A DNA stretch of 64,000 bases from Paracoccaceae bacterium (lineage in GTDB: Bacteria > Pseudomonadota > Alphaproteobacteria > Rhodobacterales > Rhodobacteraceae), in assembly GCA_021648025.1 (NCBI GenBank), contig JAKITO010000005.1, forward strand, positions 62,001 to 126,000. The letters run 5' to 3'. Numbering within the stretch: position 1 is the stretch's first letter; each line of letters begins with the position of its first letter. The translations under genes were made by a program, and so were the position numbers. The notes under the pieces are model-generated. The model searched no databases. It was not told where the DNA came from and saw only the letters and a list, made by a program, of their open reading frames with translations. Positions 5,196 to 28,176 of the stretch are shown piece after piece.

Positions 5196-6668
5196 TTGTT
5201 GTTGATTGTCAGAACTTTGATTGTTGCGTTCGCTTTCATGGCCACGGCCCTTCAAGCCGAGGAGCGGGTGGCTTTGGTTATCGGAAATTCGGTGTATGGC
5301 ACGGTTTCCTCGCTGGAAAACCCGGTGCATGATGCCCGACTATTGGGTCGCGCGCTTGAGGAGCAAGGGTTCAAGGTGACTCTTTTAATCGACAGTGATC
5401 AGGTTGCCATGAAACGCGGGATTGCCCAATTTGGTCGCGATCTGCGCGAGGCAGGAAGTACGGCCACAGGGCTTTTCTATTACGCCGGTCACGGGGTGCA
5501 GTCGTATGGCTCCAACTATCTTTTGCCGGTGGATGTGGCGCTTAGCGATGCTGCCGATCTTGGTCTGGTGGCGGTCGAGGCGCAATCGGTGCTGCGCCAG
5601 ATGTTCTCGGCCCGCAACAAGACCAACATCGTTATTCTCGATGCCTGCCGCAATAATCCCTTTACCGATATTCCGGAATTCAACGATTCAGGTCTGGCGG
5701 AAATGCAGGCCCCGACCGGCACATTCCTGGCCTATGCCACAGCGCCCGGCGGTGTGGCGTTGGACGGGCTGGACGGCAACAGCCCCTTTACCCAGGCCGT
5801 TGTGGCCGAGATGAGCAAGCCGGGGTTGCCAATTGAACAGATGTTCAAACAGGTGCGAATTTCAGTTCTGGAAAAGACCAGTGGTCAGCAAACACCTTGG
5901 GATTCGTCCTCGCTGACCGGGGATTTCACCTTTGCCCAGGCCACGGTTCTAAGTGGCGCCGACCTTGAGGCGCAGCAATTGTGGAATTCGGTTCAGGCCT
6001 CGCGCGATCCGGTTCAGATCATGCTGTTTTTGCGCGGTTATCCCGATAGTCCGCTGGTAAAAGAGGCCCGATCGCTTTTGGCCGAAGTGGTGGATCAGGA
6101 ACTGGCCGGGGAAGAACCGGTTCAGCCGGTCGCGGTTCAGGCAGGTCCGTCAAAGACGGAGCAACAGATGTTTGAAGCAACGCAGGTTGACCCGGGCATT
6201 GGCAGCTATCAGGCCTATTTGCAGAGCTTTCCGGATGGTGTGTTTGCTGAATTCGTCACGTCGGAATTGGCCGCATTAGAGAAAAAGACCAATCTTGACC
6301 CGGACGGTGAAGGTGTTCCGCCCAAGGTCGAAACCGCAGAAACACCCGTGACGTCTCAGCCGGTTGAACCTGCCAGTACAGTTAGCTTTACCCAGGCTCT
6401 ATTGTCCGAAGTACCAGAAGTCGCGGGCCGTTCGATTGCCGATCTGATCAATACCTCGCCGATATACCCGCCAATTCAAGGGCTGCCAGAGGCGTATTGG
6501 AAGGACCAGCAGTGCAGTAATTGCCACCAGTGGACGCAAGAAACGATCTGTGCCCAGGCCAACACCTATCTAAGCCTGAATGCAGAACGGTCGCTGAACA
6601 AACAGCACCCGTTTGGCGGCGCACTTAAGCTGAACCTGAAAACCTGGGCTTCTGGTGGTTGCAACTAA
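5196..6668 (+). CDS. Secreted caspase-fold (peptidase C14) protein with C-terminal CxxCH motif
   Basis: A 490-residue protein with a signal peptide (about 1-21) and an N-terminal caspase-like domain. The catalytic His99 lies in YYAGHGVQ and Cys151 in ILDACRNNPF. The middle is a low-complexity, helical linker. The last about 55 residues contain C440-S-N-C443-H444, further cysteines and a Gly-Gly-Cys-Asn end. CxxCH is the classical c-type heme attachment signature, so a heme or metal role is possible but unproven. The start is TTG at 5196, with AAGGT 7-8 bases before it and the signal peptide directly after. It converges with the TonB-like gene. Substrates of such exported caspase homologues are generally unknown. 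Confidence 0.85.
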   Translation: MLLIVRTLIVAFAFMATALQAEERVALVIGNSVYGTVSSLENPVHDARLLGRALEEQGFKVTLLIDSDQVAMKRGIAQFGRDLREAGSTATGLFYYAGHGVQSYGSNYLLPVDVALSDAADLGLVAVEAQSVLRQMFSARNKTNIVILDACRNNPFTDIPEFNDSGLAEMQAPTGTFLAYATAPGGVALDGLDGNSPFTQAVVAEMSKPGLPIEQMFKQVRISVLEKTSGQQTPWDSSSLTGDFTFAQATVLSGADLEAQQLWNSVQASRDPVQIMLFLRGYPDSPLVKEARSLLAEVVDQELAGEEPVQPVAVQAGPSKTEQQMFEATQVDPGIGSYQAYLQSFPDGVFAEFVTSELAALEKKTNLDPDGEGVPPKVETAETPVTSQPVEPASTVSFTQALLSEVPEVAGRSIADLINTSPIYPPIQGLPEAYWKDQQCSNCHQWTQETICAQANTYLSLNAERSLNKQHPFGGALKLNLKTWASGGCN

Positions 6669-9814: not shown

Positions 9815-10252
9815 CTATTTCACCAATGCTGCGGTGGTTTTGCTGTTCAGATCAAGGATCGGAAAACAATCCATTTCGTCGGCGTTCTGCGGTTGGCATG
9901 AGGTGATTTCATGCAGCAGAATTTCGGATATTCCAGCACAGGTGGTTTCAGGTATTTCGAACAATTTCAGGGTGGTGCGGGCCACGGGCAAAGGGGCTGC
10001 ATCAATCGCCAAAAGGCGGTCAATCACCCCGTTAGTATCCAGTATTGCCAGTGACATCTCAAAACCCGCAAAGCTGTTGTCGGTCTGGTTTCGGAACAGG
10101 AAAAACGCGCGGCACCCGCCGCCTTCAATCTCTTCGAATTTGTTTAGTTCAACCAGTAAGCGGCCAGACCCGGCAGCAACGGGTGGGGCCACAGAAAGGA
10201 CCATGGGCAGGGCAATTGCAGCGCCGGCAATCAGGGATTTCAGTAAGGACAT
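9815..10252 (-). CDS. Periplasmic protein of unknown function, first gene of the ExbB/TonB-like operon
   Basis: A 145-residue protein with a clear signal peptide (about 1-27, cleavage near PVAAG) and no lipobox cysteine. The mature part looks beta-rich (LLVELNKFEEIEGGGCRAFFLFRN... is its opening style, over about residues 30-52) and has four cysteines (GGGC, TTCAG, TSCQP, MDCFP) that could form disulfides. It ends 3 bases before the ExbB-like gene, so the two are probably co-expressed. I do not recognise a named family. As a small exported beta protein beside a T6SS lacking TssJ it could be an envelope subunit, but it is not a lipoprotein and I infer nothing firm. Confidence 0.7.
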   Translation of the reverse strand: MSLLKSLIAGAAIALPMVLSVAPPVAAGSGRLLVELNKFEEIEGGGCRAFFLFRNQTDNSFAGFEMSLAILDTNGVIDRLLAIDAAPLPVARTTLKLFEIPETTCAGISEILLHEITSCQPQNADEMDCFPILDLNSKTTAALVK

Positions 10253-10573
10253 TCACACCTCCGGGTTTTTTGCGGCTTGGGTGCCGCCTGTTGGTATTAG
10301 AAAATTATGGCAGTTTAGGGTATACAAGACAGTGGAGTGAACCTGTTCAAACAGGGCATCCAGGCGTATTGTGGTTGGATTCTGCGTCAGATTAGGCACA
10401 CTTTCCCCCCAAAAGCGTTCGGAAATAATTTGACATTCAGCAAACGATAAGGCTGACTTATGGTCAAGATATTGTTTTGTACTGTTACGCGAGTTGTTGG
10501 ACTGCCCACAGTTTTGAATGCGGGATGTTGGTTCGCACAAATTAGACCAGATAACCCAAATTGGGGGGAATAC
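10253..10573. promoter_or_regulatory. Divergent promoter region between the ExbB/TonB-like operon and the T6SS operon
   Basis: About 320 bases between two genes transcribed away from each other, so both operons should start here. A TTGACA at 10430-10435 is a good -35 candidate for the tssA side, but I see no matching -10 hexamer at the usual spacing. I found no sigma-54 box and no clear operator repeat. The ribosome site GGGGGGA stands just before the tssA ATG. Confidence 0.5.
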
Positions 10574-11602
10574 ATGGATCCGGCTGTCCTATTGCAGTCC
10601 AAAGGGGATGACTTGCCCAGTGGCGAGAACCTTGAGTATGACCCGGCGTTCACTGACATGGAGATTGCCGGTCAGCCGGGGGAAGAATCCCAGATTGGCG
10701 AAGAGATCATACTTGCCGAAGACCCGGATTATCGCGATCTGGCGGAAAAGTCGTTGGTGGTGCTGGAGCAAAGCCATGACATCCGCGCCGCCGTGTTCCT
10801 TGCGGATGCGATAACCCACACCCAGGGTCTAACCGGATTTGCCGATGTGACGACCTATATTCTTGGGTGTCTGACAGAGTATTGGGACACCTGCCATCCA
10901 GAGTTGGATGAAGACGACGACAATGACCCGACCATGCGGATCAACGCGGTTCAGGGTCTGGGTCAGGACAGCACGATTATCCGGTCGCTGCGTCGCACAC
11001 CGCTGACCGACAGCCGCAGTTTTGGCAAAATGTCGATGCGCGAGATTGATGTGGCCGAAGGCAGGATGACCGCACCGTCTGACATGACGGCAGTTCCGGA
11101 TTCGGCGGCTGTATCAGCGGCCTTTCAGGATACAGAAGAAGAGTTTTTGACCGGCTTGCTAACGGCGGCGCAAACCGCCGAGGACAACATTAGGGCGATT
11201 AGTGCAACGTTTGATGAAAATACCCCGGGGCAGGGGCCAGATCTGGATGAATTGATCAAGCTGCTGCGGCTCATCCGCAAGAAGCTGGCAGAAAACTCAT
11301 CCGCCGAGGACGTGGCGGATATTGCTGAGGATGGCGAAGATCAAAGCGACGCAGGCGGGGCCGCACCGGCGGCTTCGGCGGGTGGTGCTATTGGGGGTAT
11401 CAACTCTCCGTCTGATGTATCCAATGCGATTGACCGGATCATTGCCTATTATAGACGGGCAGAGCCCTCTAGCCCGGTGCCAATTGTGCTGGAGCGTGCT
11501 AAAAGACTTGTAGGGGCCGATTTTTTGACCATCATGGCCGACATGGCCCCGCTTGGAATTAACAATGTCCACCTGATTGGTGGTATCGAAGATGATGATT
11601 AA
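10574..11602 (+). CDS. tssA: T6SS assembly cap protein TssA
   Basis: A 342-residue TssA/ImpA-family protein. The N-terminal ImpA region is visible (DPDYRDLAEKSLVVLEQSHD and a TEYWDTCHPELDEDDDNDPT motif, about 60-125), as is the C-terminal part (SPSDVSNAIDRIIAYYRRAE ... APLGI, about 280-330) typical of the family. A charged linker separates them. The ATG at 10574 follows a GGGGGGA ribosome site. TssA primes and coordinates baseplate, tube and sheath polymerisation in the cytoplasm. It is the first gene of the long plus-strand T6SS run. Confidence 0.92.
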   Translation: MDPAVLLQSKGDDLPSGENLEYDPAFTDMEIAGQPGEESQIGEEIILAEDPDYRDLAEKSLVVLEQSHDIRAAVFLADAITHTQGLTGFADVTTYILGCLTEYWDTCHPELDEDDDNDPTMRINAVQGLGQDSTIIRSLRRTPLTDSRSFGKMSMREIDVAEGRMTAPSDMTAVPDSAAVSAAFQDTEEEFLTGLLTAAQTAEDNIRAISATFDENTPGQGPDLDELIKLLRLIRKKLAENSSAEDVADIAEDGEDQSDAGGAAPAASAGGAIGGINSPSDVSNAIDRIIAYYRRAEPSSPVPIVLERAKRLVGADFLTIMADMAPLGINNVHLIGGIEDDD

Positions 11603-11672
11603 GACAACAGGGATCGGGGCCTGCCCCTTTCGCCAATAAAAACATAATTAAGACTACGCAAGGAGCACTAAG

Positions 11673-12179
11673 ATGGCGAGTTCACAGAAATTCATAGCGC
11701 GCAATCGTGCGCCGAGGGTTCAGATCGAATATGATGTTGAACTTTATGGCGCCGAGAAAAAGGTACAATTGCCGTTTGTCATGGGCGTGATGAGCGACCT
11801 TGCCGGCAAATCCGAAGTGGAACAGCCCGGCATTGCCGACCGCAAGTTTCTTGAAATTGATGTCGACAACTTTGATGACCGGATGAAGTCGATGGCGCCG
11901 CGCGCCGCCTTTACCGTGCCCAACACGCTGACCGGCGAGGGCAATATGGCCGTCGATATCACGTTTGAAAGCATGGATGATTTTTCACCTGCCGCCATCG
12001 CTGCCAAGGTTGAACCGCTGAAAGAGTTGCTGGATGCCCGCACTCAGCTAAGCAATCTGATGACGTATATGGATGGTAAATCGGGGGCAGAGGATCTGAT
12101 CGCCAAGATCATCCAGGATCCAAGCCTGCTCAAAACGCTGGCCGCTCAGGCAGCACCTCAAGCTGACAGCGAAGAATAG
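11673..12179 (+). CDS. tssB: T6SS contractile sheath small subunit TssB (VipA)
   Basis: A 168-residue protein matching the family in length and sequence: SSQKFIARNRAPRVQIEYD at the N-terminus, FVMGVMSDLAGKS, the DNFDDRMKSMAPR motif, FESMDDFSPAAIA and a C-terminal LSNLMTYMDGK helix. It forms the sheath with TssC, whose gene begins 9 bases downstream. AAGGAG precedes the ATG by 7 bases. A close relative of this whole domain forms the N-terminus of the fusion at 22160. Confidence 0.97.
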   Translation: MASSQKFIARNRAPRVQIEYDVELYGAEKKVQLPFVMGVMSDLAGKSEVEQPGIADRKFLEIDVDNFDDRMKSMAPRAAFTVPNTLTGEGNMAVDITFESMDDFSPAAIAAKVEPLKELLDARTQLSNLMTYMDGKSGAEDLIAKIIQDPSLLKTLAAQAAPQADSEE

Positions 12180-12188
12180 GAGAGACCA

Positions 12189-13688
12189 ATGGCCGAAGAA
12201 CAAGCCGCAGAAGCACAAGCAGACGGTGGAGCCACAGCCTTTGGGTCGAATGAATTCGCCGATTTGCTGCAAAAGGAATTCCGCCCGAAATCGGATCAGG
12301 CCAAGACGGCCGTCGAATCCGCCGTCAAAACCCTGGCCGAACAGGCATTGGCGAATACCACGCTTATTTCCGACGACGCGCTGCGTTCGATCGAAGGCAT
12401 CGTTGCCGAGATTGACAAAAAGCTGACCGAACAGGTCAACCTGATCCTGCACCACGAAGATTTCCAACAGATGGAAAGCGCCTGGCGGGGGCTGCATTAT
12501 CTGGTCAACAACACCGAGACCGATGAGCAGCTGAAAATCCGGGTGCTGAACATTTCCAAAAAGGAAATGCACAAGACCCTGCGCAAGTTCAAAGGCACCG
12601 CCTGGGACCAGTCGCCGATCTTCAAAAAGCTCTATACCGAGGAATTCAGCCAGTTGGGCGGCGAACCTTACGGATCGCTGGTGGCGGATTATCACTTTGA
12701 CCACACGCCGCAGGATGTTGAATTGCTGGGCGAGATGTCCAAGATTGCCGCCGCGGCCCACGCGCCGTTGATCACCGGTGCCAAGCCCAGCCTGTTCCAG
12801 ATGGACAGCTGGTCGGAACTGTCCAATCCGCGCGACCTGACCAAGATTTTCCAGACGCCGGAATATGCCGCCTGGAAATCCCTGCGCGAAAGTGAAGATT
12901 CCAAATATATCGGTCTGGCAATGCCCCGCTTTCTGGGCCGTCTGCCGTATGGTGCCAAAACTGAACCGGTCGAGGCGTTCGCCTTTGAGGAAGAAACCGA
13001 CGACGCCAATTCCAACAACTATGGCTGGATCAACGCGGCCTACGGAATGGCGATGAATATCACCAGGTCGTTCAAGGAATATGGCTGGTGTTCGCGTATT
13101 CGCGGCGTGGAAAGTGGTGGAACACTGGAAAATCTGCCATCGCATACCTTCCCGACCACCGACGGCGGCGTTGATATGAAATGCCCAACCGAGATTGCCA
13201 TTGATGACCGGCGCGAGGCCGAATTGGCCAAAAACGGCATGATGCCGTTGATCCACCGCAAAAACACCGATAACGCCACCTTTATCGGGGCGCAATCGCT
13301 GCACAAGCCTGCGGAATATGACGATCCGGATGCGACCGCGAACGCCAATCTTGGCGCACGCCTGCCGTATCTGTTTGCCACCTGCCGGTTCGCGCATTTC
13401 CTGAAATGTATGGTCCGCGACAAGGTCGGATCGTTCAAAAGCCGTCAGGACATGGAAGGATGGTTGCAGAACTGGATCAACCAGTATGTTGATTTCAACG
13501 CAGACATCTCATCCGAAAATGAAAAAGCGCGCAAGCCACTTGCCGCTGCCGAAGTTGTGGTCGAGGAGGTTGAAGGCAACCCCGGCTACTATTCTTCGAA
13601 GTTCTTCCTGAGGCCGCACTATCAGCTTGAAGGGCTGTCTGTGTCGCTTCGTCTGGTGTCGAAACTGCCTTCTGAGAAGGGGGGCTAA
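12189..13688 (+). CDS. tssC: T6SS contractile sheath large subunit TssC (VipB)
   Basis: A 499-residue cytoplasmic sheath protein of normal family length. Typical segments are HHEDFQQMESAWRGLHYLV (about 93-111), YHFDHTPQDVELLGEMSKI, PRFLGRLPYGAKTEP and the C-terminal PGYYSSKFFLRPHYQLEG. The C-terminal handshake region is present, unlike in the TssC-like domain of the fusion at 22160. AGGAG lies just before the ATG. Contraction of the TssB/TssC sheath drives the Hcp-VgrG spike outward; ClpV recycles it. Confidence 0.97.
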   Translation: MAEEQAAEAQADGGATAFGSNEFADLLQKEFRPKSDQAKTAVESAVKTLAEQALANTTLISDDALRSIEGIVAEIDKKLTEQVNLILHHEDFQQMESAWRGLHYLVNNTETDEQLKIRVLNISKKEMHKTLRKFKGTAWDQSPIFKKLYTEEFSQLGGEPYGSLVADYHFDHTPQDVELLGEMSKIAAAAHAPLITGAKPSLFQMDSWSELSNPRDLTKIFQTPEYAAWKSLRESEDSKYIGLAMPRFLGRLPYGAKTEPVEAFAFEEETDDANSNNYGWINAAYGMAMNITRSFKEYGWCSRIRGVESGGTLENLPSHTFPTTDGGVDMKCPTEIAIDDRREAELAKNGMMPLIHRKNTDNATFIGAQSLHKPAEYDDPDATANANLGARLPYLFATCRFAHFLKCMVRDKVGSFKSRQDMEGWLQNWINQYVDFNADISSENEKARKPLAAAEVVVEEVEGNPGYYSSKFFLRPHYQLEGLSVSLRLVSKLPSEKGG

Positions 13689-14349: not shown

Positions 14350-15168
14350 ATGACACCACAGGAACATTTGAAAGCCGGAGACCCCGACCAGGCCCTGAAG
14401 TCGCTTCAGGATCTTGTGCGTGCGGATCCGTCTGACGCCAAACTAAGGATTTTCCTGTTTCAGTTGCTGTGCGTGCTGGGGGACTGGAAACGCGCGATTA
14501 CCCAATTAAAGCTGGCCGCCGAAATGGACGAGGCCGCAACGATGATGGCCAAAACCTACCGCGAGGCAATTATCTGCGAAGTGTTCCGCGAAAAAGTGTT
14601 TGCCGGCGAAAAGGAACCATTGATCTTTGGCGAACCCGATGAATGGCTGGCGCTTTTGATTCAGGCGCAAAAGCTGTTGGCGGATGGTAATCCGGTTGAG
14701 GCCGCCGAGGTCCGCTCCCGCGCCTTTGACGCCGCCCCACCCGTGTCGGGCACGATTGACGGCCAAAAGTTTGACTGGATCGCCGACGCCGACATGCGCA
14801 TGGGTCCGGTGCTTGAGGTGATCATCAACGGGCGTTATTTCTGGCTGCCATTCAGTGCGATTGGCACGCTGACGATGGAGGCCCCGATTGACTTGCGCGA
14901 TGCGGTCTGGACCGCCGCCACCCTGACATTGGTCAACGGCGGCGAGGTTGTGGCGCTGATCCCAACCCGCTACCCCGGGTCCACTTCCGGCGATGATGGT
15001 GCTGCCAAACTGGCCCGAAGCACCACTTGGACGGATGCAGGCGCGGATACATATATCGGCACCGGCCAGCGCCTGTTGACCACAGACCAGGGGGATGTTG
15101 CCCTGTTGGATATCCGCAGCCTGGTAATAGATGCCAGTGACGCCGTTGAGCCGACCAAAGATGGCTGA
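14350..15168 (+). CDS. tagJ: T6SS accessory protein TagJ (ImpE family)
   Basis: A 272-residue TagJ/ImpE homologue. The N-terminal helical repeat region (MTPQEHLKAGDPDQALKSLQ, about 1-90) is tetratricopeptide-like. The C-terminal domain has FDWIADADMRMGPVLEVIIN and YFWLPFSAI, which are typical of ImpE. In other bacteria TagJ binds the TssB sheath subunit and ClpV and modulates sheath disassembly. The gene overlaps tssE. Confidence 0.92.
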   Translation: MTPQEHLKAGDPDQALKSLQDLVRADPSDAKLRIFLFQLLCVLGDWKRAITQLKLAAEMDEAATMMAKTYREAIICEVFREKVFAGEKEPLIFGEPDEWLALLIQAQKLLADGNPVEAAEVRSRAFDAAPPVSGTIDGQKFDWIADADMRMGPVLEVIINGRYFWLPFSAIGTLTMEAPIDLRDAVWTAATLTLVNGGEVVALIPTRYPGSTSGDDGAAKLARSTTWTDAGADTYIGTGQRLLTTDQGDVALLDIRSLVIDASDAVEPTKDG

Positions 15169-18532: not shown

Positions 18533-18589
18533 GAACAGAATAAACGCCGCAAAAGCGGCTGAATTTGGATGATAGAGAAGGAATTTGCG

Positions 18590-21304
18590 ATGAGCGAGAT
18601 CAGTCGGGTAGCATTGTTCGGAAAGCTGAACAAACTGGGATATCAGGCCGTCGAAAGCGCGACGGTGTTTTGCAAGATGCGGGGCAATCCGTATGTCGAA
18701 GTGGTTCATTGGATGCACCAGATCCTGAACGGGCAAGACAGCGACCTGCACCGGATCGTCCAGCACTATGATCTTGACCCGGGCAAAATCGCCAGCGAAA
18801 TGACCCGCGCGTTGGATATGCTGCCGCGCGGAGCCAGCACCATTTCCGATCTTTCCGATCATCTGATGGACGGGATGGAACGCGGTTGGGTCTGGGGTTC
18901 GCTTTTGTATTCCTCCAATCAGGTGCGCACCGGGCATTTGCTTTTGGGCATGTTGAAAACCCCGGCCTTGCGCAACATTCTCAAGGGCATATCGCCGGAA
19001 CTGGCCAGTATTGGTCCCGATGATCTGGCAGATAATTTTGCCGCCGCCACCGATGGCTCGCCCGAAGAACGTCTGGCGCCGCAGGATGGCACCAGCACCG
19101 GGGCCGCCCCGGGTGAGGCTTCGGATGCAATTGCCCCGGCCCAGATGGGCAAAGAAGAGGCGTTGGAGCAGTTCTGCACCGACATGACCGAACAGGCGCG
19201 CAACGGCGAAATAGACCCTATTGTTGGGCGGGACGAAGAAATTCGCCAGATTGTCGATGTGCTGATGCGGCGACGTCAGAACAATCCGATCCTGACCGGT
19301 GAGGCGGGCGTTGGTAAAACCGCAGTGGTCGAAGGCTTTGCTTTGCGGATTGCCCGCGGCGATGTGCCTCCCGCGCTTCAGGATGTGCGGCTGTTGATGT
19401 TGGACATCGGGCTGTTGCAGGCCGGGGCCTCGATGAAGGGCGAATTTGAAAACCGTCTGCGGATGGTGATTGACGAGGTTCAGGCCAGCCCGACGCCGAT
19501 TGTGTTGTTCATCGATGAAACCCATTCGCTTATCGGAGCGGGAGGAGCCGCCGGAACTGGCGATGCCGCCAATTTGCTGAAACCCGCCTTGGCACGCGGA
19601 ACATTGCGAACAGTGGGCGCGACGACCTTTGCCGAATACAAGAAATACATCGAAAAAGACCCGGCTTTGGCGCGGCGTTTTCAGGTGGTTCAGGTGGACG
19701 AACCCAGCATTCCCAAGGCGATCCTGATGATGCGGGGCATTGCCTCGATGTTGGAAAGCCACCACCAGGTGCAGGTTCTGGACGAAGGGATTGAGGCCGC
19801 CGTCAGCCTGTCGGCGCGCTATATCCCGGCGCGGCAATTGCCGGACAAATCGGTCAGCTTGCTGGATACGGCTTGCGCCCGGGTCGCGGTTTCGCAACAC
19901 GCGGTCCCGGCGCAGGTGGATGACAGCCAGCGCCGGATTGAGGCGCTGACGACCGAATTAGAGATCATCGGGCGTGACGAAACCGCAGGCTATGATGTGG
20001 GCGAACGTCGCATAGATGTTGAGGCTGACAAAGCCGAGGAAGAAACCCGGCTGGCAGAGCTGACAACCCGCTGGGACGCCGAAAAAGCCGTCGTCGAGGG
20101 GATTCTGGAGCTGCGCGCCAAGCTGCGCGAAGGTGGCGCACCAGTTGAAGGCGAAGAGGCGGCCAGTGACGAGGCCGCAGAAGCCAGCCCTCTGACCGCC
20201 GATGAGCGGGCGGCGTTGATCGAAGAGCTGAAGGCCAGGAATGCTGAACTTGTCGAGGTTCAGGGCGAAAGCCCGCTGATCCTGCCAATTGTTGACCATC
20301 AGGCAATTGCCTCGGTAGTGGGTGACTGGACCGGCATCCCCGTGGGCCGCATGGTCAAGGACGAGATCGAGGTGATCCTGAAACTTGAGGAACATCTGGC
20401 CAAACGGGTGATCGGCCAGGATCACGCGATGAAGATGATCGCCAAGCGTATCCAGACATCCCGTGCCGGGCTGGACAACCCATCCAAGCCGATTGGCGTA
20501 TTCCTGCTGGCGGGGACCAGCGGTGTGGGCAAGACCGAGACCGCGCTGGCGCTGGCCGAAGTTTTGTACGGCGGCGAACAAAACGTCATAACCATCAATA
20601 TGAGCGAGTACCAAGAGGCACATACCGTGAGCAGCCTGAAAGGCGCGCCTCCCGGCTATGTCGGTTACGGCGAGGGTGGTGTGTTGACCGAGGCGGTCAG
20701 GCGCAAGCCATATTCGGTGGTTCTTTTGGACGAGGTGGAAAAGGCCCACCCGGATGTGCACGAGATTTTCTTTCAGGTGTTCGACAAAGGCGTGATGGAA
20801 GACGGCGAAGGGCGCACGATTGATTTCAAGAACACGCTGATCCTGCTGACCTCGAATGCCGGGTCGGAAATGATCATGGATATGTGTTCTGATCCCGAAT
20901 TGCTGCCCGACCCCGAAGGGCTGGCCAAGGCGCTGCGTGACCCGCTGTTGAAAATATTCCCGCCTGCGTTGCTGGGGCGGTTGGTGACGATCCCCTATTA
21001 TCCGCTTAGCCCGGATATGATTGGCAAGATCACTGTGTTGCAACTGAACCGGATCAAGAAAAGGGTCGAGGAATCGCACGGTGTGCCGTTTGAGTATACC
21101 GATGCCGTAGTTGATAAGATTGTCGAGCGTTGTCAGGAACTTGAAAGTGGCGGGCGGATGATTGACGCGATTGTCACCAACACCATGTTGCCCGACATTT
21201 CGGCGGAATTCCTGAAACGGATGATGGAAGGCAAAGAAATTCACCGCGTGGCCATCGACGTGAAAGACGACGATTTTGCCTATTCCTTTGACGCGAGCAA
21301 GTGA
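18590..21304 (+). CDS. clpV: T6SS sheath-recycling AAA+ ATPase ClpV (TssH)
   Basis: A 904-residue double-AAA+ ATPase. After a Clp N-domain (about 1-150) come the first Walker [10 protein letters not shown] (about 240) with Walker [11 protein letters not shown], a coiled middle region, and the second Walker [11 protein letters not shown] (about 644) with [10 protein letters not shown]. The ATG at 18590 is chosen because AAGGAA lies 6 bases upstream and the product starts [14 protein letters not shown]. The first Walker B motif reads DETH, a minor variation of DEAH. ClpV extracts TssC from contracted sheaths. The next gene, a sodium channel, starts 10 bases after the stop. Confidence 0.97.
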
Positions 21305-21314
21305 GGGCAGGACA

Positions 21315-22163
21315 GTGACAACTGAAAACGCAACTCTGTCATTTCGGGACAAGGCCCGTATATTTGTTGAACGCAAAGCGGTGACAAACACCATCCTGGG
21401 GGTGATCATTTTCAACGCGATCACTCTTGGAATGACGACGTCGCCGACGATCATGGCCGAAATGGGCGGGTTCCTGAACACCGTCGATAAGGTGGTTCTG
21501 ACGATCTTTGTGGCCGAGTTGTTGTTGAAGTTTTATGCCTACGGCTGGGCATTCTTTAAAAACGCCTGGAATATCTTTGACCTTCTGGTGGTCAGCATCG
21601 GCCTTTTGCCGGACAAGGGCGGCCTATCAGCGCTGCGGGGTTTGCGGGTTATTCGCGCCTTGCGTCTTTTGTCGGTGGTGCCACAGATGCGCACCGTGGT
21701 TCAGGCATTGCTGGACGCGCTGCCCGGCATGGGTGCGGTGATCATCATGTTGTCGATCGTCTATTACGTGTTTGCGGTGATGGCGACGCTGATGTATGGG
21801 CCGCTGTTTGACGAATGGTTCGGTACCTTGGGCCGGTCAATGTATTCGCTGTTCCAGATCATGACACTGGAAAGCTGGTCAATGGGCATCGTGCGCCCGG
21901 TGATGGTCGAATTTCCCAAGGCCTGGGTGTTCTTTGTGCCGTTCATCATCATCACTGCGTTTTCGGTACTCAACCTGTTCATCGGCCTGCTGGTCAACAC
22001 CATGCAATCGGCGGTTGAGGACGAATCCGAAGCCGAGTTCGAAAAGCTGCGCGATCTGGTGCGATCCGAGAACGAAGAGGTCGGTGGGTTGGTGCGTGAA
22101 ATGCACAGCGAGATCAAATCGCTTCGGGCCGAGATCGCAGAAATCAAGGGTAAAACTGGATGA
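21315..22163 (+). CDS. Bacterial voltage-gated sodium channel (NaChBac/NavAb type) inside the T6SS operon
   Basis: A 282-residue six-helix channel subunit. S4 carries four regularly spaced arginines, R108, R111, R114 and R117 (LRGLRVIRALRLLSVVPQMR). The pore filter is TLESWSM (184-190), the same as in characterised NavAb-type sodium channels. S6 (about 203-230) is followed by a charged C-terminal coiled coil (about 235-280) typical of BacNav channels. The start is GTG 21315 with a GGCAGGA-like site, because the ClpV frame ends at 21304. The stop overlaps the ATG of the sheath fusion (ATGA), so the genes are translationally coupled. It would be a homotetramer in the inner membrane. No T6SS role for such a channel is known to me. 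Confidence 0.93.
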   Translation: MTTENATLSFRDKARIFVERKAVTNTILGVIIFNAITLGMTTSPTIMAEMGGFLNTVDKVVLTIFVAELLLKFYAYGWAFFKNAWNIFDLLVVSIGLLPDKGGLSALRGLRVIRALRLLSVVPQMRTVVQALLDALPGMGAVIIMLSIVYYVFAVMATLMYGPLFDEWFGTLGRSMYSLFQIMTLESWSMGIVRPVMVEFPKAWVFFVPFIIITAFSVLNLFIGLLVNTMQSAVEDESEAEFEKLRDLVRSENEEVGGLVREMHSEIKSLRAEIAEIKGKTG

Positions 22164-25100
22164 GCAGTTCGCAGAAATTCATTGCCCGAAACCGCGCCCC
22201 AAGGGTTCAGATCGAGTATGATGTTGAGCTTTATGGCTCTGAGAAGAAGGTGCAATTGCCGTTTGTCATGGGTGTGATGTCGGACCTTTCGGGCAAGTCG
22301 AACGTGGCGCAGCCATCCATCGCTGACCGTAGCTTTCTGGAAATTGACGTCGACAATTTTGATGACCGGATGCGGGCCATGGCCCCGCGCGCGGCGTTCA
22401 GCGTGCCCAATACCCTGACCGGCGAAGGCAATATCGCCGTTGATCTGACATTCGAGAAGATGGACGATTTTTCGCCTGCCGCAATTGCCTCCAAGGTTGA
22501 TAGCCTGCGCCCCTTGCTTGAGGCGCGCACGCAACTGTCCAATCTGATGGCCTATATGGACGGCAAGGCCGGGGCCGAGACATTGATCGAGAAAATCCTG
22601 GGCGATCCGGCGTTGTTGTCGGCGGTTTCGTCGGCCTCTGATGCGTCGGCGGATCAAAGCGCGGCCCTGGAGAGCCTGCGGGCACTGACCCCAGAGGATA
22701 TTGATGAATCGGACAAAACCGAGGGTGTTTTGTCTGATCTCAAATCCAATGCCCCGGAGGAAGTGCAACAAGGTGATGTAACGGGTGATGTCTTGTCGGA
22801 CTTGTCTGCGCAAACCGTGGCTGACCAGCCCGAAGATGACAACAGCGCCGCAACTCTGGACGGTTTGCGAAACGTCGAACTGCCAGAGGCCGCGCCGGAC
22901 ACCTCGACCACCGAAACACTTGCAGAATTGTCGGCCACCAGCCCTAAAGCAGTCGAAGCCGTTGATACAACAGCAGACACGCTCAACAGCCTTGCCGAAG
23001 CTGATGTTCCGCAAGAAGTTGAGGACACCACCGACGATCTGTTGGCTGACCTCGCGGCCATTGCCCCTGAGGATGGCGAGGTCGTCGACACAACCACCGA
23101 TGCCCTGGACAGTCTGGGTGAAATTGAGGTGCCTGAGGCGGTTGAGGACACCACCGACGATCTGTTGGCTGACCTCGCTACCAGTGTTCCGGTCTCAGAA
23201 TTTGATACTGACGATACGGCCGATGTACTAAGCGGGCTGGCAGATTTGGAGGTGCCGGAAGCCGCAGACGACTCTCCTGATGCTCTTCTTGCTGAGTTGG
23301 GTGGCGAAGATTCTTCGTTGGCTGATGTGGTGACAGGCGATGACGCAGACCTTGATGATCTGTTGGGCGATCTGGGTGGCGGCGATGACGCGGCTTTGGA
23401 TGACTTGCTGGGCGATACTGAAAAAGATGACGACAGCACCAGCAGTGATCTTGACGATCTGTTGGGCGATCTGGCTGGCGACGACGACGATCTTGACGAT
23501 TTGTTGGCAGACACCGGGGCGGATGACTCTGACGATCTTGACGATTTGCTGGGGGATCTGGCTGGCGGCGATGATACCGATCTGGATGATCTGCTGGATG
23601 GCTTGGATGAGGGTGATGCCACCATTCCGCCCGATAAGGGGGCCACAATGTCTGACGAACCTGAGTTTGCCTTTGGTCAGTTGAGTGCCGAACGCCCCGA
23701 CTCTTTGAGGCTGAACCGTAAAAGGTTCCGCATGGCGATCATCGGTGATTTCACCGGACGTGCGGCGCGTGGGGTGTTGGAAACAGGCGAGGCTTTGGCC
23801 AATCGCAAACCCATTCTGCTGGACCCGGATACCGCCGAAGAAGTGATCGAAAGTTTTGCCACCGATCTGGTTTTGCCAATTGGCAAGGACGCGGCCGGGG
23901 TTGCGGTCAAACTGGGGGGATTGGATGATCTGCACCCGGATGAACTCTATGAAAATGTTGCGCTGTTTGGCGAGTTGAATAGCCTGCGTGGCCAGCTTTC
24001 CAGTGGCGCGACGGCTGAAAATGCAGCGAAGCAGCTAAGGGCCTGGGGTGAGAAGCACGGGCAACCCGTGGTGCCGACCAATTCAAAATCGTCGGGCAAC
24101 GCGGTTCCCGCCGATATCAAGCTTAGCGATTTTCAAAAGCTGATTGGCGATACCGAGGCCAAATTGACCCAGCCTTCGCCGATTGACGAACTGATGGCGC
24201 GGATTGTCGGCCCGCATATTCGGGCGATCCCGGACGCCGATGCCACGGCAATGAAGGGCGCGGTGGACGAGGCGCTGTCGTCGGCCATGCGCCTTGTGTT
24301 GCACCACCCGGAATTCCAGTCAATCGAGGCGCAGTGGCGGTCGATCGACCTGATTGCCCGCTCGGTCGAAACCGACGATACGCTGGATGTGATCCTGTAT
24401 GATGTGTCGGCAGAGGAAATTGCCGCCGATCTGGCCTCGGCCGATGATCTGGCGACAAGCGGTTTTGCCCGACTTCTGACCGAAGAGCCATTGGACGAGG
24501 AATTTGGCCGTGGCGGGTATTCTGCCCTGATCGGGCTTTATACCTTTGAAGAAACCCCGCCGCATGCCGAACTTCTGGGCCGTATCGCCCGGGTGGCCGC
24601 GCATGTGGACGCCCCGTTCATCGCCGCAATTACGCCGACGTTTCTGGATACCGCCAAAGAAGATCGCCACAAACTGGTGGCCGAGGCGTGGGATACGTTA
24701 CGCTCTATGCCTGAGGCCGGGCATCTGGGGCTGGTGTCGCCGCGGTTCATGCTGCGTCGGCCTTACGGCGCCAAATCCGAACCTATTTATGAGTTTGAGT
24801 TCGAAGAATTCACCATGGCTGTGGGTCTGAAAGGCATGCTTTGGGCCAACCCTGCGGTTCTGGTGGCGATTCTTCTGGCCAAGTCGTTCAAGGAAAATGG
24901 CGCGTCGATGGAGCTTGGCAAGATCATGGCCTTGGGCGAAATTCCGTTCCACTTTGTCAATGATCAATACGGTGATCAGGTGGCGTTGCCTTGCACCGAA
25001 CGCAACATCACGCTGGACAAGATCGAAATTGCCGTGACCCGGGGCATCATGTCGGTGGCCGGAATCAAGGGCCGTGATGAAATTCGGCTGACCTCGTTTG

Positions 25101-25339
25101 GGTCCCTTGCCGGGGGTGAAATTCTGGGGCCGTGGACTGGCGCGCCTCCGCCGAAACCATCCCCGCCCAAGCCGGAACCTGTAGCAAAATCAACACAAGT
25201 GGTGGACTCTGAAGACGAAACAAGCGACGATATAGATCTGGACGACCTTCTGGCAGGTTTTTCGGACGATACGGATGATGACGGTGGCGACATTGACGAC
25301 ACCGACGCCGAATTGGCCGCTTTGCTGGGCGATCTCTAG
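22160..25339 (+). CDS. Giant T6SS sheath-type fusion: TssB domain, acidic repeat linker, TssB-like plus TssC-like domain
   Basis: A 1059-residue protein. Residues 1-157 are a full TssB domain closely similar to the separate TssB (SSQKFIARNRAPRVQIEYD, MDDFSPAAIA, LSNLMAYMDGK). Residues about 158-496 are an acidic repeat linker with units like VEDTTDDLLADLA and LDDLLGDL. Residues 497-1059 start MSDEPEF and hold a TssB-like segment (RMAIIGDFTGR), then a TssC-like region (HHPEFQSIEAQWRSIDLIAR, PRFMLRRPYGAKSEP, about 700-980). This lacks the last about 120 residues of normal TssC and ends in a Pro-rich stretch and another acidic LDDLL tail. An in-frame ATG at 23648 preceded by AAGGGGG could produce the second half alone. 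The role is unknown: an alternative sheath, baseplate or regulatory component is possible. Confidence 0.9.
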   Translation: MSSSQKFIARNRAPRVQIEYDVELYGSEKKVQLPFVMGVMSDLSGKSNVAQPSIADRSFLEIDVDNFDDRMRAMAPRAAFSVPNTLTGEGNIAVDLTFEKMDDFSPAAIASKVDSLRPLLEARTQLSNLMAYMDGKAGAETLIEKILGDPALLSAVSSASDASADQSAALESLRALTPEDIDESDKTEGVLSDLKSNAPEEVQQGDVTGDVLSDLSAQTVADQPEDDNSAATLDGLRNVELPEAAPDTSTTETLAELSATSPKAVEAVDTTADTLNSLAEADVPQEVEDTTDDLLADLAAIAPEDGEVVDTTTDALDSLGEIEVPEAVEDTTDDLLADLATSVPVSEFDTDDTADVLSGLADLEVPEAADDSPDALLAELGGEDSSLADVVTGDDADLDDLLGDLGGGDDAALDDLLGDTEKDDDSTSSDLDDLLGDLAGDDDDLDDLLADTGADDSDDLDDLLGDLAGGDDTDLDDLLDGLDEGDATIPPDKGATMSDEPEFAFGQLSAERPDSLRLNRKRFRMAIIGDFTGRAARGVLETGEALANRKPILLDPDTAEEVIESFATDLVLPIGKDAAGVAVKLGGLDDLHPDELYENVALFGELNSLRGQLSSGATAENAAKQLRAWGEKHGQPVVPTNSKSSGNAVPADIKLSDFQKLIGDTEAKLTQPSPIDELMARIVGPHIRAIPDADATAMKGAVDEALSSAMRLVLHHPEFQSIEAQWRSIDLIARSVETDDTLDVILYDVSAEEIAADLASADDLATSGFARLLTEEPLDEEFGRGGYSALIGLYTFEETPPHAELLGRIARVAAHVDAPFIAAITPTFLDTAKEDRHKLVAEAWDTLRSMPEAGHLGLVSPRFMLRRPYGAKSEPIYEFEFEEFTMAVGLKGMLWANPAVLVAILLAKSFKENGASMELGKIMALGEIPFHFVNDQYGDQVALPCTERNITLDKIEIAVTRGIMSVAGIKGRDEIRLTSFGSLAGGEILGPWTGAPPPKPSPPKPEPVAKSTQVVDSEDETSDDIDLDDLLAGFSDDTDDDGGDIDDTDAELAALLGDL
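23018..23178 (+). repeat. Exact 38-base repeat within the fusion linker
   Basis: The same 38 bases (opening GTTGAGGACACCACCGACGA) occur at 23018-23055 and 23141-23178, encoding VEDTTDDLLADLA. Flanking units are diverged copies. The near-identity of DNA suggests recent unit duplication and a linker that can change length by recombination. Confidence 0.85.
23340..23630 (+). repeat. Degenerate acidic tandem repeats coding for LDDLLGDL motifs
   Basis: Repeated GATCTTGACGATCTGTTGGG-type units encode Asp/Leu motifs (DLDDLLGDL, ALDDLLGD, DLDDLLADT, DLDDLLDGL) about every 15-25 residues. They are part of the coding sequence and not a separate element. Confidence 0.85.
23636..23650 (+). promoter_or_regulatory. 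Possible internal ribosome site and start within the sheath fusion
   Basis: AAGGGGG ends 5 bases before an in-frame ATG (23648-23650). The protein read from here begins MSDEPEFAFGQLSAERPDSL, which looks like a natural N-terminus. A separate 563-residue product could be made, or this may mark the junction of two formerly separate genes. Confidence 0.55.
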
Positions 25340-25408: not shown

Positions 25409-27571
25409 ATGGCCGAAAGTAAGCCACATGCAGATTCACTCGTCTGGATGTCTGGCAGTTATACAGCCAAGGACATTCTTCTGAAACGGGCTATCGTACG
25501 CGAAGGCCTTAGCAAACTGACCGAAACGACGATCGAATTCCAGTCAAAGAACAAGGCTGTCAAGCTAGAGGATATCGTCGGGCGCACCATGACAGTGCAT
25601 CTCAAGACGATGGACAACAAAGAGCGGATTTTCACCGGGACTGTTATATCGGTGGAAAATCAGGGTTTCTTTGATGGTTACGGTCAATACGTGGCCGAAG
25701 TACGGCCGTGGTTCTGGCTTTTGACAAGGACACAGAATTGCCGGATTTTCCAGGAAAAGACGGTTATAGATATTATTGACGATGTGCTTTCAGAGCACGG
25801 ATTTTCGGACGTTAAAAAGCGGCAAAGCGGCACGTATAAAACCCGCAGCTATTGCGTGCAATATCGCGAGACGGATTATGATTTCCTTTGCCGTTTGATG
25901 GAGGAAGAGGGGCTGTATTTCTATTTCGACAACGAAATGAAGTCGAACAGCATCGAAAACCTGGTCATTGCGGATGGGGTTGGTGGCCACTCACCGGTTC
26001 CGATCAATGGCACGATTGAATTCATCGCCCGCGATGATTCCGGCAAGATCCGTGAAGACCATATCGCCGAATGGGCCAAGGAAGAAAGCCTGACACGCGG
26101 AATGGTGACACTTGAGGATTACAACTTCGAGACGCCGACATCCGAACTTAAGGTCAGCAACAAGATCGAAAAGGGCAGCCACAGCCACAAAAAGTTTGAG
26201 ATTTATGATTACCCTGGCCACTACCGGGATACCGGGCTGGGTGATGACCGCGCAAAGATGCGGATGCAGGCCGAAGCGATCAAACACAAGCTCTGGCGCG
26301 GGGCATCGTCTGTGCGGACGTTGGGAACGGGTTATACTTTCAAGCTAAAGGAGCATCCTGAGAAGGCGGCAAATGGCGAGTATCTGGTGACGGATGCAAC
26401 CCATTACCTTCAGGTTAACACGGATTACAAAGATCAGGATTTACGCCATGATCTTAAGCCGCTGCGCGCCGATTTCCCGGAAGAAATGAAGGCTGATGCC
26501 TATGCCTGCATCTTTGGGGCGATCCCCAAGGCGGACCAATACCGCGCGCCATTGGTGACCAAATGGCCGACGATTGCCGGTCTGCATACGGCGACGGTTG
26601 TTGGTAAGGACGGAGAAGAGATCTGGACCGACAAATACGGGCGGATCAAGGTTCAGTTCCATTGGGACCGTGTGGCCAAAGAGGGCAAATTGAAAGAAAA
26701 GTCGTCCTGTTGGGTCAGGGTGGTAACGCCATGGTCGGGCAAAAGCTGGGGCTTTGTGGCGGTGCCGCGCATGGGACAAGAGGTGGTCATTCAGTTCGAA
26801 GAGGGCGACCCGGACCGGCCAATCTGTACCGGCATGCTTTATCACAAAGAGACGATGCCGCCTTATCAACTCCCGGAGAATCAGACTCAGGTGGGTATTC
26901 GTACGGATTCGTCAAAAGATGTCAAAGACGCCGAGGCCTATAACGAACTGATGTTCGACGATCTGGGCGACAAGGAAATGATGCGCGTTCAGGCGCAAAA
27001 AGATCATCAGATGTTGGTTAAGAACAAATCGGTTGTGACGATTGGTCTGGATGCCATTGATGCGGGTGCCCATGATGATGAGGGCAGTTTAAGTCAGGTG
27101 GTCAGGAACCATGTGACCGAGACGATCCTGGAAGGCGATCATTACGAAACGATCGAAACGGGCAAACAGGAGATAAAGATCGACAAGGGCGATCAGTCTT
27201 TGACCATTGCCAAGGGCGACCAAACCATCAAGATCGAGACCGGCAGCAAGGTGCTTGAGATCAAGACTGACAAGACCCAGAAGATCGAGGGTAAGCACAC
27301 CAAGACAATCACTGGTGACGATACCACCACGGTGAAAACCGGCAACATGAAGATTGATGTCAAAGCCGGCAAGGTTTCCATCAAGGCGGCGATGGAGATC
27401 AAGCTGGAAGTGGGTGGATCGTCGATCAAGATTGATAATTCAGGAGTGACGATAAAAGGGCCAATCATCAAAATTGCGGCTGATGGTATGGCAGAAATGA
27501 AAAGTCCGATGACCACGGTGAAAGGCGACGGCATGCTAACCCTTAAGGGCGGCATGACGTTGATCAACTAG
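25409..27571 (+). CDS. vgrG: T6SS spike protein VgrG (TssI)
   Basis: A 720-residue VgrG. It contains the gp27-like part (about 1-380, with YCVQYRETDYDFLCRLMEEE and GLYFYF), the gp5 OB-fold (about 385-480, with GEEIWTDKYGRIKVQFHWDR and SSCWVRVVTPWSGKSWGFV) and a C-terminal Lys/Thr-rich beta-prism (about 580-720, IKIDKGDQSLTIAKGDQTIK). No catalytic extension follows the prism, so it is a structural spike and not an evolved VgrG. The ATG at 25409 follows GAAAGGA. A small unknown gene and a PAAR gene lie directly downstream, the usual place for adaptors and effectors. Confidence 0.96.
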   Translation: MAESKPHADSLVWMSGSYTAKDILLKRAIVREGLSKLTETTIEFQSKNKAVKLEDIVGRTMTVHLKTMDNKERIFTGTVISVENQGFFDGYGQYVAEVRPWFWLLTRTQNCRIFQEKTVIDIIDDVLSEHGFSDVKKRQSGTYKTRSYCVQYRETDYDFLCRLMEEEGLYFYFDNEMKSNSIENLVIADGVGGHSPVPINGTIEFIARDDSGKIREDHIAEWAKEESLTRGMVTLEDYNFETPTSELKVSNKIEKGSHSHKKFEIYDYPGHYRDTGLGDDRAKMRMQAEAIKHKLWRGASSVRTLGTGYTFKLKEHPEKAANGEYLVTDATHYLQVNTDYKDQDLRHDLKPLRADFPEEMKADAYACIFGAIPKADQYRAPLVTKWPTIAGLHTATVVGKDGEEIWTDKYGRIKVQFHWDRVAKEGKLKEKSSCWVRVVTPWSGKSWGFVAVPRMGQEVVIQFEEGDPDRPICTGMLYHKETMPPYQLPENQTQVGIRTDSSKDVKDAEAYNELMFDDLGDKEMMRVQAQKDHQMLVKNKSVVTIGLDAIDAGAHDDEGSLSQVVRNHVTETILEGDHYETIETGKQEIKIDKGDQSLTIAKGDQTIKIETGSKVLEIKTDKTQKIEGKHTKTITGDDTTTVKTGNMKIDVKAGKVSIKAAMEIKLEVGGSSIKIDNSGVTIKGPIIKIAADGMAEMKSPMTTVKGDGMLTLKGGMTLIN

Positions 27572-27582
27572 GTGGCATGGAT

Positions 27583-28176
27583 ATGAAAGAGAAGTTCAAG
27601 GATCTCGAAAAGTTCTCCACCGACCCGGTGGCCAAACTTTTGTCGCGTGCCAATGTCATCCTCAAGACACCATTGAAAGCGCCGCCAACCGCCCCGGCGG
27701 CAGTAGTGCTGGAAGAGCTGGAGGAAAAGGGCGCGTTGATAGATCTGCTGCGTCTGCTGGCCATCCTGTTGCCCCCGCGCGAACGGGTTTGGTGGGCCTG
27801 CATGGCGGCGCGCGATTATGTTGGGCCACGTTCTGACGATGATCCACCGTCGCTGGTCGCGTCCGAGACATGGGTGTTCAACCCGTCGGATGAAAACCGC
27901 GATGCGGCCCGCAATTCGATGGACCACGCTTATGTTGATGATGATACGGTGAATTGTGCCTTGGCAGTTCTTTATGCTGACGGGACGCTTGGCCCGGGCG
28001 ATCTGGCGCAATACCCGGCACCGGCGGGTGCGTCGGAAACAGCGGCCTTTGCGATGAATATGGTAGCGTTGGGGGAACTTTCTGATAAGTTTGAGGAACA
28101 TGGCCAATTGTTGATTGACCGCGCCCTGAATATCGGGCGGGGTGGCAATGGCAAGGTCACACTGGACGAAGCCTGA
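27583..28176 (+). CDS. T6SS-associated protein of unknown function (between vgrG and PAAR)
   Basis: A protein of about 197 residues if started at the second ATG (27583, MKEKFKDLEKFSTDPV); the ATG at 27577 is 6 bases upstream and also possible. It is helical, with a hydrophobic-acidic middle (LLRLLAILLPPRERVWWACM) and a conserved-looking ETWVFNPSDENRDAARNSM. No signal peptide or transmembrane helix is seen. It resembles uncharacterised alphaproteobacterial proteins (possibly the DUF6931 group, from memory) found near T6SS spike genes. The position suggests an adaptor that loads PAAR or an effector onto VgrG. Effector activity is not evident: I see no toxin motif. Confidence 0.75.
   Translation: MKEKFKDLEKFSTDPVAKLLSRANVILKTPLKAPPTAPAAVVLEELEEKGALIDLLRLLAILLPPRERVWWACMAARDYVGPRSDDDPPSLVASETWVFNPSDENRDAARNSMDHAYVDDDTVNCALAVLYADGTLGPGDLAQYPAPAGASETAAFAMNMVALGELSDKFEEHGQLLIDRALNIGRGGNGKVTLDEA

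Follow-up and report, generated by a model that had tools for sequence, protein, structure and literature searches.

A TssCL fusion protein in a Paracoccaceae type VI secretion cluster, and the wider family of its putative TssB-TssC protomer

Why does a type VI secretion system (T6SS) cluster that has canonical tssB and tssC genes carry a third sheath-type gene in which parts of both are joined? The question is raised by a stretch of 64,000 nucleotides from a Paracoccaceae bacterium (GenBank assembly GCA_021648025.1, contig JAKITO010000005.1, positions 62,001 to 126,000 of the forward strand), here called the window, in which an open reading frame (ORF) on the + strand starts with an ATG at 22160 and stays open to 25339, stop included, encoding 1059 amino acids. 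The fusion consists of a TssB arm, an acidic repeat linker, a C-terminal module (C-module) made of a TssB core and the N-terminal half of TssC, and an acidic tail. It is a genuine gene, and its product is a TssCL protein. The architecture is already known; what is new is that its terminal protomer, which appears to lack handshake elements, belongs to a scattered family, that a short motif is amplified in its linker, and that a channel gene is linked to it. The parts of the fusion are these:

22160..22633, + strand: TssB arm, residues 1-158 (PF05591, E 7.6e-62; TIGR03358, 196.4 bits, cut-off 97.25)
22634..23647, + strand: acidic repeat linker, residues 159-496 (108 D/E, 7 K/R; predicted helices)
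23648..25129, + strand: C-module, residues 497-990 (AlphaFold2 model, Foldseek, profile matches to TssB and TssC chains)
23708..24007, + strand: TssB-like part of the C-module, its residues 21-120 (hhalign to TssB 29-129)
24101..25111, + strand: TssC-like part of the C-module, its residues 152-488 (hhalign to TssC 15-372)
25130..25336, + strand: acidic C-terminal tail, residues 991-1059 (DLDDLLAG and a terminal ELAALLGDL)

The Pfam family T6SS_VipA (PF05591) matches the whole protein in two stretches, the better of which covers residues 9-158, and VipB (PF05943) matches residues 701-982 with an E-value of 8.3e-42. The second VipA stretch scores 25.3 bits in the whole fusion, above the cut-off; a scan of the C-module by itself gives 23.0 bits, slightly short of the cut-off of 24. 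A complete VipA domain, the mark of a canonical TssB, is found in the arm only. The mark of a canonical TssC, VipB followed by VipB_2 (PF18945, the TssC C-terminal domain), is absent: the Pfam scan found no VipB_2 in the fusion, TIGR03355 gives it 137.3 bits, under the cut-off of 271.5, and PF18945 has a single match in the 67 contigs of the source genome. The window's own TssC does have PF18945. An earlier note on this DNA, made from its letters and ORFs, had described a full TssB domain close to the stand-alone TssB, about 340 acidic residues of the LDDLL type, a second module with TssB-like and TssC-like parts but no TssC C-terminal region, and separate canonical tssB and tssC genes. All of this was borne out: the arm is 80% identical to the TssB encoded at 11673-12179, the linker is 338 residues long, both parts of the second module are recovered by profile alignment (below), and Pfam matches identify the canonical genes at 11673-12179 and 12189-13688.

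Two genes wrongly joined in sequencing or assembly, the danger that the earlier note itself had pointed to, are not what is seen here, as the fusion occurs as one ORF in many genera and on a complete plasmid. Among 17 regions fetched from the family sample, the source genome apart, 11 have the fusion as one ORF, four have the C-module alone and two are cut by a contig end. The 80 named loci divide into 23 fused, nine cut by a contig end with the tail present, 13 stand-alone with a tail and 35 stand-alone without one; L122, whose arm is truncated at a contig end, is counted as fused, and L182, which starts at a contig end, as stand-alone and tail-less. The closest named relative is L122 (97%), from a Paracoccaceae metagenome bin. 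On a complete plasmid of Leisingera methylohalidivorans (L213, 5812-10776) the frame is open for 1654 amino acids from the TssB start. GC content is uniform over the parts of the window fusion (0.563, 0.573 and 0.579; 0.564 for the window).

Public annotation conceals the fusion. Records label the protein as a large sheath subunit, and in one or more complete plasmid records the gene begins downstream of the TssB domain: METH_RS25310 of L. methylohalidivorans is annotated from 6664, about 850 bases past the start of the open frame at 5812, and the TssB domain is consequently missing from the annotated product. In 17 Leisingera plasmid records, 13 list no feature at the best match to the TssB arm, the gene table being incomplete.

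The earlier note took the architecture to be unlike known sheath proteins, which does not hold, as it was already in print in 2022 under the name TssCL. In the parts of that paper that were available (PMC9515649), TssCL is described from Leisingera sp. and other roseobacters as combining a single VipB domain with two of the VipA type; in ANG-M7 the first VipA domain is 86.2% identical to the TssB of the cluster, and separate tssB and tssC genes are retained. The same account assigns TssCL to group-three (H1-like) T6SSs and proposes an origin by fusion of sheath genes. The single ORF of the window fusion likewise encodes a VipB domain and a pair of VipA domains, with tssB and tssC separate. TagJ is present in the T6SS of the window, and EFADLL in its TssC resembles the EFASLL of HsiC1. 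The available parts of PMC9515649 make no mention of acidic repeats, a missing VipB_2, a tail motif or an adjoining channel, and report no TssCL beyond Alphaproteobacteria, whereas the C-module alone was seen here in several phyla. No other open-licence report of such fusions or hybrids, under the TssCL name or otherwise worded, was recognised; an earlier report elsewhere is possible.

The C-module departs from both canonical proteins: it opens with a TssB core only and aligns with residues 15-372 of canonical TssC (VipB/HsiC) without the VipB_2 handshake domain, whereas the arm is a full TssB (VipA/HsiB). A profile of 64 sequences (alignment A3, one from the window and 63 from among the 80 named loci) was compared by hhalign, with alignment A4 serving for TssB; residues 21-120 of the C-module align with TssB 29-129 at a probability of 99.1 and residues 152-488 with TssC 15-372 at a probability of 100. 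TssB 1-28, TssB beyond 129 and TssC 373-499 have no aligned counterpart. Against the sequences of the PDB, the matches of the profile fall within the first ~375 residues in TssC-type chains and within residues ~25-147 in TssB-type chains. The AlphaFold2 model of the C-module has a pLDDT of 89.5 and a pTM of 0.91, and Foldseek matches it to nine PDB chains at E <=0.001, all from T6SS sheaths (TM ~0.4-0.58), TssC chains being best. The second half of the fusion is thus placed in the sheath superfamily by structure and profile comparisons, and not in an unrelated family as the earlier note had feared. A phage origin was considered and rejected: no record of the phage collection covers as much as 80% of the query, weak matches to five records extending over 51% of it at most, and among viral models Foldseek gave one match at E <0.001, a tail sheath protein with a TM of 0.26 or less.

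In the available parts of the description of the Pseudomonas aeruginosa sheath (PMC5807055), the inner layer is held by a handshake in which TssC strands 11-12 meet the TssC C-terminal and TssB N-terminal strands of neighbours, the elements involved being TssB strand 1 and TssC strands 11-13, and the middle layer consists of TssB strands 2-3 with TssC strands 1-4 and 8. Judged by residue range, the C-module appears to be a single-chain TssB-TssC protomer that keeps the middle-layer elements and lacks those of the handshake. By analogy with solved sheaths it would be unable to polymerise in the usual manner. The suggestion that the fusion builds a special sheath segment is accordingly weakened for the C-module, because the TssB N-terminal and TssC C-terminal handshake strands are absent; the TssB arm could plausibly enter the sheath. 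With these strands missing, the protomer might instead sit at one sheath end, distal or at the baseplate, where it would start the sheath or stop its growth while the tether, by way of the arm, binds it to the last ring: an armless TssB core with the N-terminal half of TssC might attach to a neighbour and yet present no site for a further subunit, and the gene is placed, in the family regions, with clpV (or the channel gene) on one side and vgrG on the other. This end-piece role is rather improbable, since 26 of the 44 family genomes with TssC have no C-module, a cap would not require many repeats, and the missing arms also take away contacts that would be useful to a cap.

A second TssC homologue in a T6SS cluster is not without precedent. 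Agrobacterium TssC40 (ImpD) is likewise an additional TssC homologue in the same cluster, and is described in the available parts of PMC3702570 as essential and non-redundant. ImpD-like proteins, taken as the products of the gene between tssC and tagJ in seven class loci, look alike at their ends in all seven; in the only one scanned (L085), VipB_2 is present and a TssB part absent, the reverse of the C-module, and on this ground an identity of the C-module with ImpD/TssC40 was rejected.

As far as sequence comparison can tell, the C-module is a family of its own, older and broader than the fusion, rare, and found by itself in bacteria with a T6SS from several phyla, which hints at an overlooked, old accessory component. 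In the family sample of 198 genomes, 44 matched the C-module query, and in 18 of these, the source genome included, the matches were long and had E-values no higher than 1.0e-149. Near-full-length copies were found in at least 2 of 385 class genomes and at least 3 of 398 phylum genomes, the source genome being counted in each; at most four candidates per genome were scored in the class search and at most three in the phylum search. By their labels, stand-alone loci come from Acidobacteriota, Thermodesulfobacteriota, Planctomycetota, Gemmatimonadota, Myxococcota, Rokuibacteriota and several Pseudomonadota; these are mainly metagenome bins, and individual phylum labels are possibly wrong. Nine stand-alone relatives scanned with Pfam, including L082 and a trimmed L051, show VipA and VipB, VipB_2 being found in none of them; in one of the nine, L161, VipA falls slightly under the cut-off.

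The C-module keeps company with canonical sheath genes. Canonical TssC occurs in 44 of the 198 family genomes, and all 18 genomes with a C-module fall among these (chance 6.7e-14 assuming independent genomes, an independence that is incomplete). Of the 45 genomes checked that hold a stand-alone copy, 43 have canonical TssC as well, the exceptions being those of L166 and L194; besides G345, this check covered 44 stand-alone loci out of the 48 that are named. Around some copies, L173 among them, no T6SS gene was recognised within the fetched 10 kb on either side. L173, L184, L186, L188 and L195 (around 10001-11500) are orphan C-modules that share a downstream gene set, canonical TssC being encoded elsewhere in their genomes; MnmG, ParA and ParB (Pfam) lie downstream in L173, MnmE upstream in L184, and a PilZ-domain gene is found in L186. 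Adjoining the stand-alone C-modules, no conserved partner gene was recognised apart from T6SS genes. In L083, from another alphaproteobacterial family, TssC and ClpV are 75% and 69% identical to those of the window, and no full-length C-module was found in its genome (G550).

In a tree of C-modules made by a quick method (SH-aLRT support only), the 31 tail-less copies all lie on one side of a fully supported branch, and the fused copies are placed among tail-bearing ones, in and around Rhodobacteraceae. The armless L144 and L045 nest within the mainly fused part, which makes loss of the arm the simplest reading there. Arm and repeats were apparently added to an older C-module in or near Rhodobacteraceae, with later losses apparent; the fused label requires eight changes on the tree, with the cut rows as a separate group, so that any count of gains and losses is provisional.

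The arm itself keeps to the sequence pattern of a TssB. Over 158 columns in 35 arms and 19 TssBs, 98 are conserved (over 85%) with the identical residue, and a single one is type-specific, a conservative change from I to L. In 12 genomes that hold both proteins, mean identity is 77.3% among arms, 88.3% among TssBs and 79.4% between an arm and its own TssB: the arm diverges faster than TssB yet retains the TssB pattern. Because that pattern is retained, the arm is likely to pair with canonical TssC and to enter the sheath. The faster divergence, together with the absence of the arm in some lineages, would also suit a functionless duplicate in decay, but conserved arm columns, a terminal motif retained in 44 of 45 tails and an identical open frame across many genomes and on a complete plasmid leave decay or assembly error with next to no probability. 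Resolution is poor in a tree built from arms and TssBs together, which fits a single or a multiple origin of the arm; the row L191, which has two N bases and is not TssB-like past them, was omitted from this tree and kept in alignment A4, and the Planctomycetaceae TssB (L154) is present twice.

Between arm and C-module, the linker of the window fusion (residues 159-496) contains 23 LxxL and six L[DE]xLL motifs, and a tandem DNA repeat with a period of 45 is visible at 23447-23597. The model places 16 separate short helices in residues 166-465, mostly at a spacing of about 20 residues, and two more in the tail, all at low confidence (mean pLDDT of the linker 36-57 per block in the full-length model). 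Linkers range from 439 to 1191 residues across the 23 named fused loci, and in these 23 linkers LxxL occurs 856 times against 272 after shuffling and LDDLL 69 times against an expected 1.5, the most common motif spacings being 21, 4, 20 and 19 residues. The pattern [DE][FLIM]xxLL is found 177 times in the 23 linkers (14 in shuffled ones) and 98 times in 45 tails (shuffled, 3), with at least one copy per tail. The strict form L[DE]xLLxx[LFIM] has 320 copies in 61 C-module proteins, 60 of which have at least one, whereas the 574 other T6SS proteins yielded two copies, the first in a VgrG and the second in a TssA; the scan was confined to ORFs at least 38% identical to a window protein, and the family and named loci may share species. 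The C-terminus of the tail reads LxALLxx[LF] in 44 of the 45 tail-bearing named loci, the exception being Singulisphaera L197, whose C-module protein (9851-12262) has eight DPELAAL repeats within a very acidic tail, apparently an independent multiplication of the terminal motif. Three motifs stand ahead of the C-module in L048, which has no TssB arm, and one is N-terminal in L153 of Pseudovibrio; the motif is therefore not bound to the arm. The repeats of the linker thus appear to multiply a short motif, probably an acidic amphipathic helix, that is also retained at the C-terminus.

What such a string of motifs might do can be read in more than one way. Paxillin-type LD motifs and the CheY-binding peptide of FliM are short acidic amphipathic helices of the LDxLL or EIDALL kind; the motifs of linker and tail resemble them in the kind of helix, which implies no homology and is a pointer to the type of partner. 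The linker could alternatively be a phospho-scaffold, its threonines being phosphorylated by the protein kinase of the cluster and bound by the FHA protein TagH. The window does hold kinase, phosphatase, TagF and FHA genes, and D-T-T-x-D is present in early repeats, but TxxD is barely enriched (213 against 176 +/- 12 in shuffled sequences) and threonine is also compatible with a helix cap, which makes this reading very improbable. The wide variation in repeat number would suit a tunable sink, in which a soluble, cytoplasmic TssCL titrates TssC through its arm or ClpV through its motifs and so sets a threshold for assembly or recycling. An arm sufficiently TssB-like to bind TssC, and copies such as L173 that lie away from recognised T6SS genes, are in keeping with this; the arm, however, retains a handshake strand, which a pure decoy would not need, and such a regulator appears rather improbable.

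The reading preferred here is that TssCL is a minority sheath subunit that carries cargo. The arm, held to the constraints of a canonical TssB, would pair with canonical TssC, and a fraction of the sheath subunits would then bear the fusion; entry into the sheath through the arm is, judging by the conserved TssB pattern, probably the best-founded step. The linker would start from the C-terminus of TssB, on the outer rim of the sheath, and carry many short acidic amphipathic helices strung like beads; the acidic composition is observed, and the helices and disorder are low-confidence predictions. The self-contained TssB-TssC protomer at its end would be barred from the sheath lattice by its missing handshake arms. 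Outside the sheath, the motifs and the hybrid protomer could together offer multivalent docking to a helix-binding partner, for which the favoured candidate, speculatively, is the disassembly machinery, ClpV, possibly via TagJ, because canonical TssC of this class has, close to the N-terminus, a [DE]-hydrophobic-x-x-LL stretch that bears a loose similarity to the motif. Sheath recycling would then be concentrated, delayed or limited. The model as a whole, in which the arm builds TssCL into the sheath and tether and hybrid protomer form an outside multivalent docking site, is given a probability of about 40%.

Published work, as far as the available parts of the sources go, offers several points of contact. 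The solved sheath leaves TssB1 residues 136-172 untraced, along with others at its outer extremity and at termini (PMC5807055), and TssB-mCherry, whose name points to a C-terminal tag, is a published sheath reporter (PMC4594159). The EFADLL-like stretches in TssC of this class are the counterpart of EFASLL in HsiC1, and the equivalent helix of V. cholerae, LLDEIM, binds ClpV (PMC4239648). Other observations weigh against the docking model. For the P. aeruginosa H1 class, the N domain of ClpV is reported to be insufficient for binding and the N-terminal helix of TssC dispensable (PMC4239648, likewise seen in part). The strict motif was found in none of the 23 canonical TssCs scanned, TssC being linked to the motif proteins by the looser pattern only, and a resemblance between D- and L-rich sequences is weak evidence for a common partner. 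EFxxLL in TssC, tried as a marker of C-module systems, was rejected, as it also occurs in family T6SSs in which no C-module was found. The shuffling controls take no account of the repetitiveness of linkers, and the full-length model (pTM 0.54) shows no confident packing of arm and C-module, the arm being poorly modelled. Arms also diverge faster than TssBs, as noted above, and stand-alone C-modules and the armless L144 and L045 indicate that the arm is sometimes dispensable. The polymerisation, length and recycling of sheaths are open questions for contractile injection machines, and a natural tethered TssB fusion, together with a protomer free of lattice arms, would provide ready means of finding out which contacts are important and what sheaths recruit.

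The surroundings of the fusion gene in the window include the following genes:

11673..12179, + strand: canonical tssB (Pfam)
12189..13688, + strand: canonical tssC, VipB and VipB_2, EFADLL near the N-terminus (Pfam, sequence)
14350..15168, + strand: tagJ/impE (Pfam ImpE)
18569..21304, + strand: clpV/tssH, named from its translation and a syntenic record
21276..22163, + strand: gene of voltage-gated sodium-channel type (Pfam Ion_trans, E 4.7e-40; PDB 5hvx, E 2.3e-77)
25409..27571, + strand: vgrG/tssI, immediately 3' of the fusion (Pfam)

The channel gene lies directly upstream and overlaps the fusion gene by four bases (ATGA), its stop codon running into the start codon of the fusion. A PDB sequence search with the channel gives 5hvx and its relatives as best matches and entries named NavAb next; channels of this kind go by names such as NavMs and BacNav. 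The association with the fusion is strong but not strict. In all 22 named fused loci that have upstream DNA (23 fused in total), the channel ORF ends at most 16 bases from the arm, and its orthologue group is found in 15 of the 18 C-module genomes of the family (58-75% identity, E <1e-98, the query itself aside), against more distant paralogues only in some 113 further family genomes. The channel is not beside the fused gene of L047 (genome G175), nor beside the stand-alone copies of G077 and G188. An obligate pairing of channel and C-module was rejected, as in G162 the channel directly precedes vgrG with no C-module, and G077, G188 and G175 show the converse. A search of open-licence papers brought up none that ties a sodium channel to a type VI secretion operon. 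A bolder extension of the sheath-bound model is a long shot: the C-module would be an unrecognised third sheath-type T6SS component in several phyla, handshake-less and controlling the sheath from outside, which in Rhodobacteraceae became attached to the sheath by means of a spare TssB and was coupled with a channel-type gene dedicated to the T6SS, such that envelope depolarisation or ion entry alters the acidic tether and thereby assembly or recycling.

In L144 (8674-9918), L047 (9467-10387) and L213 (3648-4895), clpV is separated from the channel or fusion gene by unrelated-looking ORFs; the window has no gap at this place, which is possibly a variable cargo site. On the other side of the fusion, a gene for a DUF6931 protein (27577-28176 in the window) follows vgrG in most tail-bearing clusters.

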